Assembly: GCA_023667045.1 (NCBI GenBank) | Contig: JAMPAU010000005.1 | Coordinates: 18,277-82,276 of the forward strand | Reading direction: 5' to 3' | DNA length: 64,000 nt | Source: Ruminococcus flavefaciens | GTDB lineage: Bacteria > Bacillota > Clostridia > Oscillospirales > Ruminococcaceae | Shown: positions 4,713 to 63,648 of the stretch, piece after piece | How the letters are laid out: each line of letters starts with the position of its first letter | How positions within the stretch are numbered: position 1 is the first letter of the stretch | Notes under the pieces: generated by a model | What the model was told of the DNA's origin: nothing | The model's input: only the letters and a program-made list of their open reading frames with translations | Database searches by the model: none | Made by a program: the position numbers and the translations under genes

Positions 4713-5057
4713 TTATTTATTGTCGGAAAAACTGTCAGTTATCTTTATTTTTCCGGTAATGTGACGGTTAAAGTTTTCGAGTTCCTCCGCCGGAATCCAT
4801 AACTCCTGATGATGTTTTGCACCTACCGTATGCACGACGAAACTTTTAATATATTCGTCGTCAACCTCAAACTCCGTGACATAACCTTTGCGGTCGGCGG
4901 TTTTTGTGTTCCATTTTTCAGCGATTTCACGGGCGTACTCATGGTTTAGAACAGGATAAAAAATAGGCTGTTCGGGAAGTCTCGGTGGAAATTCTTCATA
5001 GTCGCTTCCGGCTATTAGGTCAAGCTCTGCTGTGCCGACTGGTCTGTATAAAATCAT
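4713..5057 (-). CDS. Protein of the type annotated as ADP-ribosylation/crystallin J1
   Basis: A 114-aa soluble protein matching a small family often labelled ADP-ribosylation/crystallin J1, although no ADP-ribosylglycohydrolase fold is evident at this size. The pattern is YRPVGxxEL near the start, FPPRLPxQPIFYPVLNxEYA in the middle, and ELWIPAEELExFNxHIxGxI at the end. The frame is open from 5132, but the ATG at 5057 has AAAGGT six bases upstream and matches the family start. It lies 50 bp downstream of the Imm1-type gene. Function is unknown. Confidence 0.7.
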   Translation of the reverse strand: MILYRPVGTAELDLIAGSDYEEFPPRLPEQPIFYPVLNHEYAREIAEKWNTKTADRKGYVTEFEVDDEYIKSFVVHTVGAKHHQELWIPAEELENFNRHITGKIKITDSFSDNK

Positions 5058-29046: not shown

Positions 29047-29448
29047 GTGAGCAGGCTATACAGCAGCGGAAACGTTTTTAGTTTATGAGGAAAGTCCGGG
29101 CATCATAGGGCAGGGTAGCTGTTAACGACAGCCGGAGGCGACTCCCGAAACAGTGCAACAGAAATAAACTGCCTCTTTTGAGGTGGTACGGTTACTTTCC
29201 CCGCATACGTGGGGGTGACCCTAAACTGCCTCCCCGTGAGGTGATGGTGGAAAGGTGCGGTAAGAGCGTACCAGAGTGCAGGTGACTGTACTGCTATGCA
29301 AACTTTACCCGATGCAACGTCTATTTGGAATTTCATGTCTTAACGTCTGCCCGACGGATATGAAATTATGACGGCTTGAGCCTGTCGGCAACGGCAGGTC
29401 TAGATAAATTGCTGTACTCGACAGAACCCGGCTTATCGGTCTGGTCAC
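29047..29448 (+). ncRNA. rnpB: RNase P RNA
   Basis: Catalytic RNA that removes 5' leaders from tRNA precursors. Universal signatures are present in order: GAGGAAAGTCCGGGC near the 5' end, AGGGCAGGG, ACAGAAA, GGTAAGAG, and ACAGAACCCGGCTTATCGGTC near the 3' end. P1 pairs GTGA-CAG at 29047 with CTGGTCAC at 29441-29448. The layout looks like class A. The region corresponding to P12 is enlarged: AAACTGCCTC with a GAGGTG partner occurs twice (29166, 29223), separated by a CRISPR-repeat-like hairpin. A strong promoter and terminator flank it. Confidence 0.95.
29196..29222 (+). repeat. Type I-E CRISPR-repeat-like hairpin inside rnpB
   Basis: TTTCCCCGCATACGTGGGG followed by GTGACCCT. It differs at two positions from the hairpin-1 sequence at 54.5 kb and 62.1 kb. 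The flanking GGTTAC and GTGACC can extend the stem. On both sides stands the 11-mer TAAACTGCCTC (29165-29175 and 29222-29232), like a target or tandem duplication. Confidence 0.75.
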
Positions 29449-54398: not shown

Positions 54399-54516
54399 GG
54401 GGCAGATTAAGAAGCAGAGAGCCAGCCCTGCATATGCAGGAAAAATTTTTAATTATAACCGCCTGTCTCAGGGTCACCCCCGCGTGTGCGGGGAAATACT
54501 TCTGCGTTTCTGCCCC
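54399..54516 (-). ncRNA. Putative crRNA-like structured RNA, copy 1 (psi-repeat, spacer, degenerate repeat)
   Basis: Predicted to start at about 54515 from a strong promoter. Closing stem: GGGGCAGA (54516-54509) with TCTGCCCC (54406-54399). Inside is hairpin 1, CCCCGCACACGCGGGG with GTGACCCT after it, identical to the 62 kb copy over 27 bases. Then come a ~25-base spacer starting GAGACAGGCGG and a decayed hairpin 2 (TTTTTCCTGCATATGCAGGG) that aligns to the 62 kb hairpin 2. No clear terminator follows, so it may instead be a leader of the gene at 54292. Naming it crRNA-like is inference from the repeat type. Confidence 0.6.
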
Positions 54517-54521
54517 ATACG

Positions 54522-54550
54522 AGTATAGCACAAAGCCATGTGTTTGTCAA
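54522..54550 (-). promoter_or_regulatory. Promoter of the crRNA-like RNA, copy 1
   Basis: On the minus strand TTGACA (54545-54550), 17-bp spacer ending TGC, TATACT (54522-54527). Same form as the promoter of the 62 kb copy. Confidence 0.85.
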
Positions 54551-61120: not shown

Positions 61121-61162
61121 TGAGCGATTGCAATTAATAATTATGCATTGGATAAATCACTC
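61121..61162. repeat. Dispersed block, copy C
   Basis: TGAGCGATTGCAATTAATAA, then TTATGCATTGGATAAATCACTC. Its end forms the stop codon and last codon of the cation-efflux gene at 61157. Confidence 0.75.
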
Positions 61163-62032
61163 CGCCGGATTGACGTGTACCATTATATGCTTTATATCGG
61201 GAAACTCTTTTTCGACGGCAGAGTGTACTCTTTCGGCTATGGCATGGGCATTAGTGAGCGACATATCACTCTGCACTGCTATTTCAATATCGGCATATAT
61301 CCTGCTCCCGAACTGCCTTGTACGGAGCATATCTATGTCCTGCACGCCGTCCTGTTTCATTACACATTCACGGATAAGGCTTTCTGTCTGGTCGTCGCAT
61401 GAGCGGTCAGTCATTTTGCCGACTGATTCACGGAAAATATCCACAGAGGCTTTTATTATGAATACGCATATCACAAGGCTTGCCACTGGGTCTAGTACCG
61501 GAAAGCCCATTCTTGCCCCTGCTATGCCTATTAAAGCCCCCACTGACGAGAGTGCGTCGCTCCTGTGATGCCATGCGTCTGCCATTAGTGCGTCGGATTT
61601 GAGGAGCTTTGCATAGTGCCTTGTATACCAAAACATACCCTCCTTTACCGCAATTGATATTCCTGCCGAGACAAGAGCGAGCAACTCCGGCACTGCAAGC
61701 TGAGAGAAGTCGCCGGAAGATATACTGCGTATCGCACCAGCCCCTATGAAAAGCCCTGTCACAAGCAGTACCACAGCCAGCACTATCGCCGATACACACT
61801 CAAATCGTTCATGACCGTACGGGTGTTCTCTGTCGGAAGCCTTTGATGACAGCTTAACGCCAATTATCACAATGATACTGCTGAATACATCTGACGCTGA
61901 GTGTACTGCGTCGCTGACCATTGCACCGGAGTGAGCCGTTATACCTGCAAAAAGCTTAAAAATCGAAAGTATAAAATTTCCGGATATACTTACCGCCGAA
62001 ACTTTGACAGCTTGTTTTTCGTTATTTTCCAT
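61157..62032 (-). CDS. Cation diffusion facilitator (CDF) transporter
   Basis: A 291-aa efflux transporter for divalent metals (Zn, Fe or Mn). It has six transmembrane helices, the metal site DAVHSASD at about 41-48 followed by SSKASDREHPYGHERFE, the second HDxxD-like site in DAWHHRSDALSS, and a C-terminal cytoplasmic ferredoxin-like domain ending HVNPAE. GGGGG lies upstream of the ATG. The promoter is not clear because the intergenic region holds an opposite-strand RNA promoter very close to the start. Confidence 0.92.
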   Translation of the reverse strand: MENNEKQAVKVSAVSISGNFILSIFKLFAGITAHSGAMVSDAVHSASDVFSSIIVIIGVKLSSKASDREHPYGHERFECVSAIVLAVVLLVTGLFIGAGAIRSISSGDFSQLAVPELLALVSAGISIAVKEGMFWYTRHYAKLLKSDALMADAWHHRSDALSSVGALIGIAGARMGFPVLDPVASLVICVFIIKASVDIFRESVGKMTDRSCDDQTESLIRECVMKQDGVQDIDMLRTRQFGSRIYADIEIAVQSDMSLTNAHAIAERVHSAVEKEFPDIKHIMVHVNPAE

Positions 62033-62042
62033 AAAAGCCCCC

Positions 62043-62071
62043 TTGACAAAGCTGAAATTTTATGCTATACT
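62043..62071 (+). promoter_or_regulatory. Promoter of the crRNA-like RNA, copy 2
   Basis: TTGACA (62043-62048), 17-bp spacer ending TGC, TATACT (62066-62071). It points away from the cation-efflux gene into the repeat pair. Confidence 0.88.
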
Positions 62072-62077
62072 ATATAC

Positions 62078-62240
62078 AGACAGCAATGCTTTATTTATTT
62101 TCCCCGCACACGCGGGGGTGACCCTAGTTCAGATAGTCGTAACTGCCGTCTGCCGTATCGTTTTTCCCCGCATACGCGGGGCTTGCATTGCTGTTTATAG
62201 TCTGAATCTCCTTGAATAACTTTCAAGGGGATTTTTTATG
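62078..62240 (+). ncRNA. Putative stand-alone crRNA-like RNA, copy 2 (repeat-spacer-repeat)
   Basis: Predicted start about 62078. Closing stem: ACAGCAATGC (62081-62090 with one more base on the 5' side) pairs with GCATTGCTGT (62185-62194). Hairpin 1 is CCCCGCACACGCGGGG plus GTGACCCT (62102-62125). A ~35-base spacer follows, starting AGTTCAGATAG. Hairpin 2 is TTTTTCCCCGCATACGCGGGG (62161-62181). A terminator follows: CCTTGAA / TTCAAGG then T6 (62210-62237). The repeats are of type I-E form and translate to the FPRTRGGDP peptide familiar from misread I-E arrays. It is a complete transcription unit in a 200-bp gap between unrelated genes. Confidence 0.7.
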
Positions 62241-63648
62241 CCTCTGCATTGAGCAGGGTGTTTATTATCCCTTGATAAAAGTAAGCCGATTCACTCGCAA
62301 ATGACAGCCCATGGTCTTGTGGATTCTGTATCTGCATTACTACTATGTATGAGCCGTCTGTATCAACTGAGTTTTTCAGACAGCCGGTTATGTACAGGAA
62401 GTCGCCCACCCACGTCTCTGCCGTACCTGTTTTAGCATAGAGGGTGAAGTTTTCCGGCAGATACGTACCTAGTCCGGAGGCTACCCCTGCCATGCCGTCA
62501 AGGAGATTCTGGCGGTATTCTTCCGGAATGCTTGCTATCACCTCATTTGGCTGAGAGCCTTTTTCAATCACTGTATCGGGATTTCCAGTGCTTACTATAT
62601 TTTCCAGTACAAAGGGTCTTACCATATCGCCGAATACCGCCTCGCGTGCGAGGGTGGCTAGATATATAGGACACGTTAGTATATAAGACTGCCCGAATGC
62701 ACTTCTTCTGAGGTCGTCATTGCAGTTTATTTCTATGTTGTTTTCAATTTTTCCGAAATCGCATTCTATATCAGTAACAAAATGAAAAATGCTGTCGAGG
62801 TCTTCCAGTACGTCGTCTTTGCCGATTTCATTGAAAGCCTTAGCAAAGAAGATATTGCTTGAATTAGTAAAAGCGGAGTACAGACTTCTTTCCATAGGGT
62901 AGTATGAGTTAGTGTCATGATCCCAGTTTACTATAGTAGCGCCGTCGTCAGTCCATTCGCCCTCGTCCCATAGTGAGTATATGCCGTGCTTGTCGGCTAT
63001 CACCTCTGACATTATTTTAAAGCAAGAACCGGGTTCGGCATTTTGGAAAGCCTTGTTTCCGCACTCACCCCAAGCGAGTTTTTCATCATAGTCCTGTATA
63101 GGTATTTCCGTCGGGTCGTAAGAGGGATATGACACCTGTGAGAGTATAGAGCCGTCTGTACGCATGACGACCACAGAGCCGACAAGATTGTTTTCTGCCA
63201 TATAGTTGTAGAGGGCATTCTGTACGTCTGAATCAATAGTAATCTGTATTGAGTTTCCTATTTCAGAATCTCCCGACGGTGTACGCAGAATATCTTCAAA
63301 GCACCTGTCATAGCCGTCCGACATTTCGGTTAGTATATTCGCAAGAGACACGGCATATTCCTCATTGTATACTCTCATCTCAATATTATTCGGGGTATAT
63401 TCTGAACTTACAAGCAGATTGCCGTTTATATCGTATATATTTCCTCTTGTCACCGGAGCAGGTTCAGTTTCCGGCTGAGTGGTGACTTCTTCTGTAGTTT
63501 CTTCTTCTGTTTCTTCTGTTGCCGGCAGTACGTCCGGCGAGAGAGTTACGTTTTCCGGAGCAGATACGGTATGCGGCGGAGTTTCAGAGCATGATGTCAT
63601 AGCCGTAAAGGCAACAAGCAGTGCAAGGCATTTTCTATTTAAAATCAT
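62236..63648 (-). CDS. Lipoprotein with penicillin-binding transpeptidase domain
   Basis: A 470-aa exported lipoprotein with signal peptide ending TSC and a Thr/Glu-rich linker (about 40-68). GNIYDINGNLLVSSEYTPN is a short PBP-type entry segment. In the transpeptidase domain the active-site SxxK is in EPGSCFKI (Ser-Cys-Phe-Lys), SxN in FTNSSNIFFAK, and KTG in LYAKTGTAE. It lacks the large N-terminal pedestal of class B PBPs such as FtsI, so it may be a reduced class B PBP or a sporulation/beta-lactam-binding relative. Convergent with the crRNA-like RNA. Confidence 0.82.
   Translation of the reverse strand: MILNRKCLALLVAFTAMTSCSETPPHTVSAPENVTLSPDVLPATEETEEETTEEVTTQPETEPAPVTRGNIYDINGNLLVSSEYTPNNIEMRVYNEEYAVSLANILTEMSDGYDRCFEDILRTPSGDSEIGNSIQITIDSDVQNALYNYMAENNLVGSVVVMRTDGSILSQVSYPSYDPTEIPIQDYDEKLAWGECGNKAFQNAEPGSCFKIMSEVIADKHGIYSLWDEGEWTDDGATIVNWDHDTNSYYPMERSLYSAFTNSSNIFFAKAFNEIGKDDVLEDLDSIFHFVTDIECDFGKIENNIEINCNDDLRRSAFGQSYILTCPIYLATLAREAVFGDMVRPFVLENIVSTGNPDTVIEKGSQPNEVIASIPEEYRQNLLDGMAGVASGLGTYLPENFTLYAKTGTAETWVGDFLYITGCLKNSVDTDGSYIVVMQIQNPQDHGLSFASESAYFYQGIINTLLNAEA

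Follow-up and report, generated by a model that had tools for sequence, protein, structure and literature searches.

Spacers that match the genome of their own host are usually regarded as accidents of CRISPR arrays. Two kinds of crRNA-like RNA are among the known systems closest to the locus studied here. In CreTA, CreA consists of ectopic repeats around a single spacer that is partly complementary to the promoter of a linked toxin RNA, and the first CreA repeat is more diverged than the second (PMC9458426). CreR, described for type I and V-A systems, targets the cas promoter (PMC12737573). Concerning the origin of spacers, the E. coli CRISPR-1 protospacer hotspot yields self spacers preferentially from DNA near the repeat locus, and the PAM supplies the last repeat base (PMC10011333). 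The Cas1-Cas2/DEDDh integrase of Megasphaera recognises a TT PAM and integrated in vitro at three of three array repeats with no leader preference, and the authors expect guidance by host factors in vivo (PMC10284694). In a type I-B archaeon, strong self-targeting led to deletions in the targeted gene of mutant strains, and under high self-targeting acquisition was centred on the target, according to PMC7521656.

Here, we describe a group of ectopic CRISPRs, each with one to few spacers, from several genomes. The surrounding DNA is often the source of their spacers, and some of their neighbours are altered at the matching site. This raises the questions whether CRISPR integrases sample the DNA beside any chromosomal repeat, and whether the genes nearby, housekeeping genes among them, are shaped or guarded by capture of this kind. 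A literature search, whose scope left out most subscription journals and bioRxiv, found no recognised report of dispersed one-spacer units with flanking-gene spacers. With CreR these units share a crRNA-like RNA meant for Cascade, but they are many, lie far from cas and have no match to its promoter. They resemble CreA in having ectopic repeats around one spacer and partial complementarity to a linked locus, whereas their matches lie mostly in genes. Like orphan or mini-CRISPR arrays and self-targeting spacers they are short, carry the resident repeat and mostly 32-nt spacers and show an enriched AAN PAM, but they are cassettes with a promoter of their own, about a dozen in number and dispersed, and the flanking gene is often the source of the spacer. 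The single-repeat members, with a promoter and one repeat, resemble the solitary repeats of phages (Racr); unlike these, the units are chromosomal and mostly have two repeats and a spacer, and none was found in viral contigs scanned with one pattern for phage-borne units. The preference for nearby DNA recalls the E. coli hotspot, whereas the sources here lie 64-1377 bp from ectopic units in assembled genomes, and the true arrays examined show none.

The window, i.e. the whole stretch of 64,000 nt that was analysed, contains the following features:

62043..62071, plus strand: sigma-70-type promoter with TTGACA (62043-62048), 17-bp spacing and TATACT (62066-62071), by direct reading
62080..62089, plus strand: 5′ arm of the closing stem, ACAGCAATGC, by direct reading and arm-pairing test
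62097..62125, plus strand: repeat 1 with ATTTT lead-in, hairpin CCCCGC-ACAC-GCGGGG (62102-62117, direct reading) and 8-nt crRNA handle GTGACCCT (62118-62125)
62126..62160, plus strand: spacer of 35 nt, whose reverse complement encodes DTADGSYDYLN
62161..62189, plus strand: repeat 2 with hairpin CCCCGC-ATAC-GCGGGG (62166-62181, direct reading) and diverged 3′ end CTTGCATT
62185..62194, plus strand: 3′ arm of the closing stem, GCATTGCTGT
about 62205..62239, plus strand: rho-independent terminator hairpin and T-run, by direct reading and RNA fold
62236..63648, minus strand: gene of a transpeptidase that we take to be penicillin-binding-protein-like (PBP) from the KTGTAE motif of its translation; proposed source of the spacer
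62347..62364, minus strand: DTDGSY codons of this gene, where the orthologues read have about 12 extra residues, a spacer-like stretch included
61157..62032, minus strand: cation-diffusion-facilitator-like (CDF) gene, named by inspection
54399..54550, minus strand: second dispersed unit, with a spacer of 23 nt and the hairpin of repeat 1 from 54493
29180..29229, plus strand: 50-nt insertion with a lone CRISPR repeat, CCCCGCATACGTGGGGGTGACCCT, in the RNase P RNA gene, by alignment with Rfam RF00010

The labels metK, glgA, ThrE, DUF, PBP and CDF are our presumptive names from translations, unlike the cas names.

Direct reading confirmed the unit as the first-pass annotation had described it from the sequence alone: a promoter, a pair of type I-E-type hairpins at a distance of 64 bp, a closing stem of 10 bp and a terminator, on the plus strand and flanked on both sides by minus-strand genes. 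That annotation had overlooked the second unit at 54493 (minus strand) and the lone repeat at 29199 in the RNase P RNA gene. The RNA fold of 62070-62245 reached -65.7 kcal/mol (z -6.32) and none of 200 shuffled sequences was equally stable; since the minimum free energy structure pairs both palindromic hairpins with each other, the fold alone is no proof of two separate hairpins. A known RNA family was rejected as the identity of the unit, because Rfam yielded no family at gathering score and a permissive search only one sub-threshold match (21.4 vs 49.5 bits).

The genome to which the window belongs (G000; 3.64 Mb, 112 contigs) was searched for type I-E cas genes and for arrays with the repeat of the unit, and both were found. 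The cas gene search, which covered G000 only, revealed a complete type I-E operon, cas3-cse1-cse2-cas7-cas5-cas6e-cas1-cas2(DnaQ), on contig C45, which is not the contig of the window. Three arrays, one of them with three repeats only, have a repeat nearly identical to that of the units (CCCCGCACACGCGGGGGTGACCCT for repeat 1 of the window unit vs CCCCGCATACGCGGGGGTGAYCCT and CCCCGCACACGCGGGGGTGGCCCT in the arrays), and BLAST of the window unit against its own genome gave 37 matches, array repeats counted in. The unit thus agrees with a mini-CRISPR of type I-E both in its repeat match to an own array and in the complete cas genes, and its description as a crRNA-like unit of type I-E repeats stands. 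Array and unit repeats of other genomes agree in their loops for the L028 units in G094 and for several G127 units and disagree in G125; L079 is a true array, and the matches of repeat model R1 included no array in G126 and G128. When one array was compared with phage sequences by BLAST for protospacers and their PAM, two unannotated records were obtained, and two exact scans of viral sequences with spacer fragments gave no match.

The units form a dispersed family. Repeat model R1 and direct reading identified 12 promoter-bearing units in G000, eleven with two repeats and one with a single repeat, plus a composite unit on contig C79 and the lone RNase P repeat. The promoter spacing is 17 bp in all 12, and TTGACA is exact in 11. 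A pattern search of 125 genomes of the genus found promoter plus hairpin in three and the reversed pattern in none. Similar units occur in seven related genomes, comprising G094, G125, G126, G127 and G128 as well as G117 and G013, where they are single-repeat as far as seen. Thirteen named loci obtained by a pattern scan, from which own-genome records are perhaps omitted, are mostly titled Ruminococcus, Clostridia or Oscillospiraceae MAGs. L024 is a weak match of the repeat model with no hairpin by pattern. In the 29 multi-repeat units, a set that includes one probably spurious first repeat (L148), the first seven positions of the repeat 1 handle agree with GTGAYCC in 93-97% of cases per position and those of the last repeat in 55-83%, as expected if each unit provides one working crRNA. 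The closing arms of these units score higher with their own partner than with others (mean 18.2 vs 13.9, sd 3.1), and the own partner of the window unit ranks second among 29; since the own partner is among the best five in 14 of 29 only, a closing stem is assigned to about half of the units. Spacers are mostly 32 nt long, with shortened ones of 7 nt in L017 and 14 nt in L014, so that the 35-nt window spacer, called unusual in the first-pass annotation, is atypical within its own family as well; it may be read as 32+3.

Four units (L014 at 1823, L015 at 1775, L016 and L017) run from repeat 2 into an RBS-like stretch and a start codon within about 20 nt, and others look free-standing, several of which have a terminator or a closing stem. 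Such positions directly upstream of genes, and the single-repeat units L025, L029 and L031, would suit a Cas6e-cut leader or decoy RNA, in which repeats matter as Cas6e sites, either for the processing of mRNA leaders or for the titration of Cas6e/Cas7 known from Racr, and the spacers are incidental; published solitary repeats bind Cas6f/Cas7f and block Cascade formation (PMC10651486). This explanation appears very improbable to us, as most spacers have exactly 32 nt, the handle is kept in repeat 1 and lost in the last repeat as for a working crRNA, and the scan of viral contigs with one pattern was empty.

Many spacers are of local origin. All between-repeat stretches of at least 20 nt were aligned to their own flanks of ±3 kb and to 150 shuffles, with p ≤ 0.01 defining a local match. 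Such matches were found for 20 of 37 unit stretches at distances of 64-1377 bp, on either side and either strand, whereas 0 of 127 array spacers had one with the same flanks and shuffles (Fisher p 6.5e-16). This repeated control kept L010 and counted two spacers of the small C40 array as array spacers; an earlier one with shorter flanks and 100 shuffles had given 3 of 127 at p ≤ 0.01. The two matches of L158 may represent nearby duplicates of the unit's own leader or stem, and the stricter count without this pair is 18 of 35 (p 1.3e-14). By genome, the matches are distributed over G000 (four: L013, L015 twice, L018), G094 (three: L028, L158 twice), G125 (three: L144 twice, L145), G126 (seven: L146 twice, L147 three times, L148, L149), G127 (one: L153) and G128 (two: L155, L156). 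The 37 stretches include three that are probably tail segments (L148 spacers 1 and 3, spacer 2 of the plus unit of L147) and leave out those shorter than 20 nt (L014 at 8104, L017, L026). L028 at 1568 (p 0.013), L143 (0.013) and L155 spacer 1 (0.020) were borderline and are outside the 20. When unit spacers were compared with the loci of other units, 19 of 742 pairs scored at least 34, of which 10 connect loci with the same targeted gene and 2 are between loci of G126 whose unit tails resemble each other. Most local matches lie within genes, which presumably include rpmB, rpsT, thiC, secG and ung, as read from the translations.

The matches also carry marks of CRISPR integration. The target PAM is AAN (AA at -3,-2) in 10 of 20 cases against a background of 11.3% (p 2.2e-5). 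In 11 of 20, target base -1 is the same as the base with which the preceding repeat ends (p 0.017); both findings fit the integration logic of type I-E systems. The TT PAM of the Megasphaera integrase would correspond to AA on the other strand. Among 16 gapless matches, identity was 0.69-0.88 for the nine targets with AAN PAM and 0.81-0.97 for the seven others (p 0.005), a lower identity that would be expected from autoimmune purging. The seed is no more mismatched than the rest (22 of 128 in bases 1-8 vs 59 of 384 elsewhere), and escape is therefore clear in single cases only.

We consider it probable that mobile ectopic mini-CRISPRs of the resident type I-E system captured DNA from their own neighbourhood and that neighbouring genes subsequently escaped. 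Whatever mechanism might have moved them, units would be transcribed from their promoter, and the RNA would be cut by Cas6e to give one crRNA for loading into Cascade. Cas1 and the Cas2-DnaQ fusion would have placed fragments of flanking DNA in units as spacers, and a unit with self DNA would attack the adjoining gene, which would then have escaped this self-targeting. The deletions and the target-centred acquisition in the type I-B archaeon (PMC7521656) fit this account.

Changes in neighbouring genes were found at some loci. At the L015 unit at 1775 (L015a), the distance from metK to the next gene (DUF) is 174 nt, compared with -4 to 17 nt in all 11 relatives, and repeat model R1 found no repeat at E ≤ 0.1 in any of 29 loci from relatives; the unit is thus an insertion relative to these. 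The spacer agrees with its own downstream gene in 0 of 5 bases at positions 1-5 and in 26 of 27 beyond base 5. This gene keeps 3 of 8 seed bases next to a PAM AAT, and the 11 relatives have 5-7 of 8 seed bases, an AAN PAM and 19-28 of 32 matching bases overall. The L015 unit at 4747 targets the start of rpmB. At 11 loci, its own included, seed bases 1-7 are intact throughout and the PAM is TAAT in eight and TGAT in three; base 8 of the spacer is found in the spacer alone and is absent from all 11 sites. A twelfth locus, L226, had no rpmB site within the stretch fetched. Over 11 comparisons of own with best sister allele, the sister matched better in seven, the own allele in two (as for L155 spacer 3 and L149), and two were ties; this count is a weak pointer, since up to 11 relatives stand on the sister side and the match of L155 spacer 2 is not significant.

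Spacers differ even between corresponding units. The orthologous units of G125, G127 and G128, with 88.8-91.8% identity across about 5.9 kb, differ in their spacers, which suggests separate spacer gain in three species; two of the spacers (L145, L156) derive from one stretch of an amidohydrolase-like neighbour gene in opposite orientation, and the third matches another neighbour. Near rpsT, units of G125, G126 and G128 contain four different rpsT-matching spacers. These apparent gains, the insertion at gene junctions relative to relatives and the retained promoter and handle argue against degraded orphan CRISPR fragments that spread by ordinary duplication, have no present function and resemble their neighbours through old neutral self-capture. 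Shortened spacers (7 nt in L017, 14 nt in L014), partly diverged repeats and the 17 of 37 stretches with no local match at p ≤ 0.01 would agree with such decay, which we nevertheless hold to be quite unlikely.

A cis-acting CRISPRi, in which the crRNA of a unit steers Cascade to the neighbouring gene and represses it without cleavage, in the manner of CreA or CreR with many targets, would also require what the units retain, i.e. promoter, repeat 1 handle and hairpins, and local targets in six genomes are compatible with it. Mismatches fall on third codon positions in 51 of 81 cases, a hint that spacers change less than genes; the underlying codon phases were taken by machine from the longest ORF, with the strand wrong for L015 at 1775 and probably wrong for L144. 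Spacer 1 of the minus unit of L147 (PAM AAC) matches over 24 PAM-proximal bases with only distal mismatches, and the four units that run into an RBS and start codon point in the same direction. Against CRISPRi, the mismatch counts given above show no seed conservation; both strands are targeted, with 10 of 16 targets in sense orientation, an AAN PAM is missing from half of the 20 targets, the own seed of L015a is lost and mostly kept in relatives, and the proposed target of the window unit is missing from its own gene. Taken together, we regard CRISPRi as an unlikely explanation.

The first-pass annotation had proposed that the window unit might be a CreR-like or CreA-like regulator. Neither proposal was upheld. 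The unit is located away from the cas locus as one of a dozen copies, and when its seed was compared with the 639 nt upstream of cas3, the similarity did not exceed chance (p 0.33 for the window spacer, 0.33-0.99 for nine G000 spacers). As regards CreA, repeat 1 is the better preserved one in the 29 units, opposite to CreTA, and the resemblance detected for the spacer concerns coding DNA of the adjacent gene's family rather than a promoter. Alignment of the spacer with the 3 kb on either side gave no significant nucleotide match (p 0.71), a test that a seed-only match would escape. Autoregulation of the units' own promoters was likewise rejected, the only hint being L016 with 12 of 13 bases and PAM AAA (p 0.61).

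At the protein level, the spacer-encoded DTADGSYDYLN resembles a C-terminal loop of PBP orthologues (NDNADGNYDYTNYSQNGSY in G100, NDTAGNSYDYTNYKENGSY in G060), and the own copy, reading SVDTDGSY, is without this loop. Scores were 48 for G100, 43 for G060 and 43 for G025, compared with null maxima of 36, 34 and 37 in 200 shuffles, and 32 (p 0.045) for the fourth relative, G026; at the DNA level, G100 gave p 0.005 and the other three relatives p 0.69-0.93. The resemblance was spotted by eye first and tested afterwards. Among 30 loci with PBP orthologues, of which the C-terminal motif was read in about 18, only L084-L087 show the CDF gene adjacent. In the four relatives read, PBP stop and CDF start are separated by 15-41 nt with no unit, compared with 203 nt in the own genome, and the window unit therefore looks like an insertion in its own lineage relative to these four. 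Judging from these comparisons, the spacer is most likely the copy of a PBP gene segment since lost from the own gene, although its source may be a related allele of another strain and ordinary indel variation could account for the loop difference. Under the self-capture account, the unit would have entered the junction of two genes on one strand that probably formed an operon, its spacer would have been taken from the PBP-like gene on its flank, and this gene would have escaped, apparently by loss of the protospacer loop.

Altered neighbours also permit the view that units are locus guards or CRISPR-style selfish drives against unit-less versions of the flanking gene, which we consider rather unlikely. 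The linked own copy would then be resistant through a lost loop, an altered seed, a poor PAM or synonymous drift. If this were true, resident Cascade-Cas3 would cut alleles that lack the unit, whether these are incoming or resident, the stretch with the unit would be favoured by repair or selection, and the unit would resist replacement and spread with its neighbour gene.

Several further observations were made on the units and the resident system. The Cas2 of the G000 system is fused to a DnaQ-like 3′-5′ exonuclease (L010:1163-2032), and the array spacers in L011:2105-3023 include two pairs whose members look like versions of one protospacer, as in spacer updating. The second unit of the window (54399-54550) sits behind a gene that by reading ends in a dockerin-like domain, and there is a resemblance between its shortened spacer and the final codons of this gene (p 0.02, 0.106 in a second test). 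The stretch AAACTGCCTC occurs on either side of the RNase P RNA insertion at 29180-29229, and the stem that carries it is presumably P12. In L018:1130-1690, the unit is present in two tandem copies with terminators downstream of thiC, and the L017 unit with its 7-nt spacer lies directly upstream of a gene named glgA by reading. The printed stretches of L080 and L082, titled Alistipes senegalensis (JAMPEF), equal the G094 sequence (L031, L028), and this title is probably wrong. Finally, a second lineage (L144, L145, L150, L153, L155) has a closing stem like GTTGACAGCAAG/CTTGCTGTCAAC around two to four repeats, with single-repeat versions in L073 and L157.
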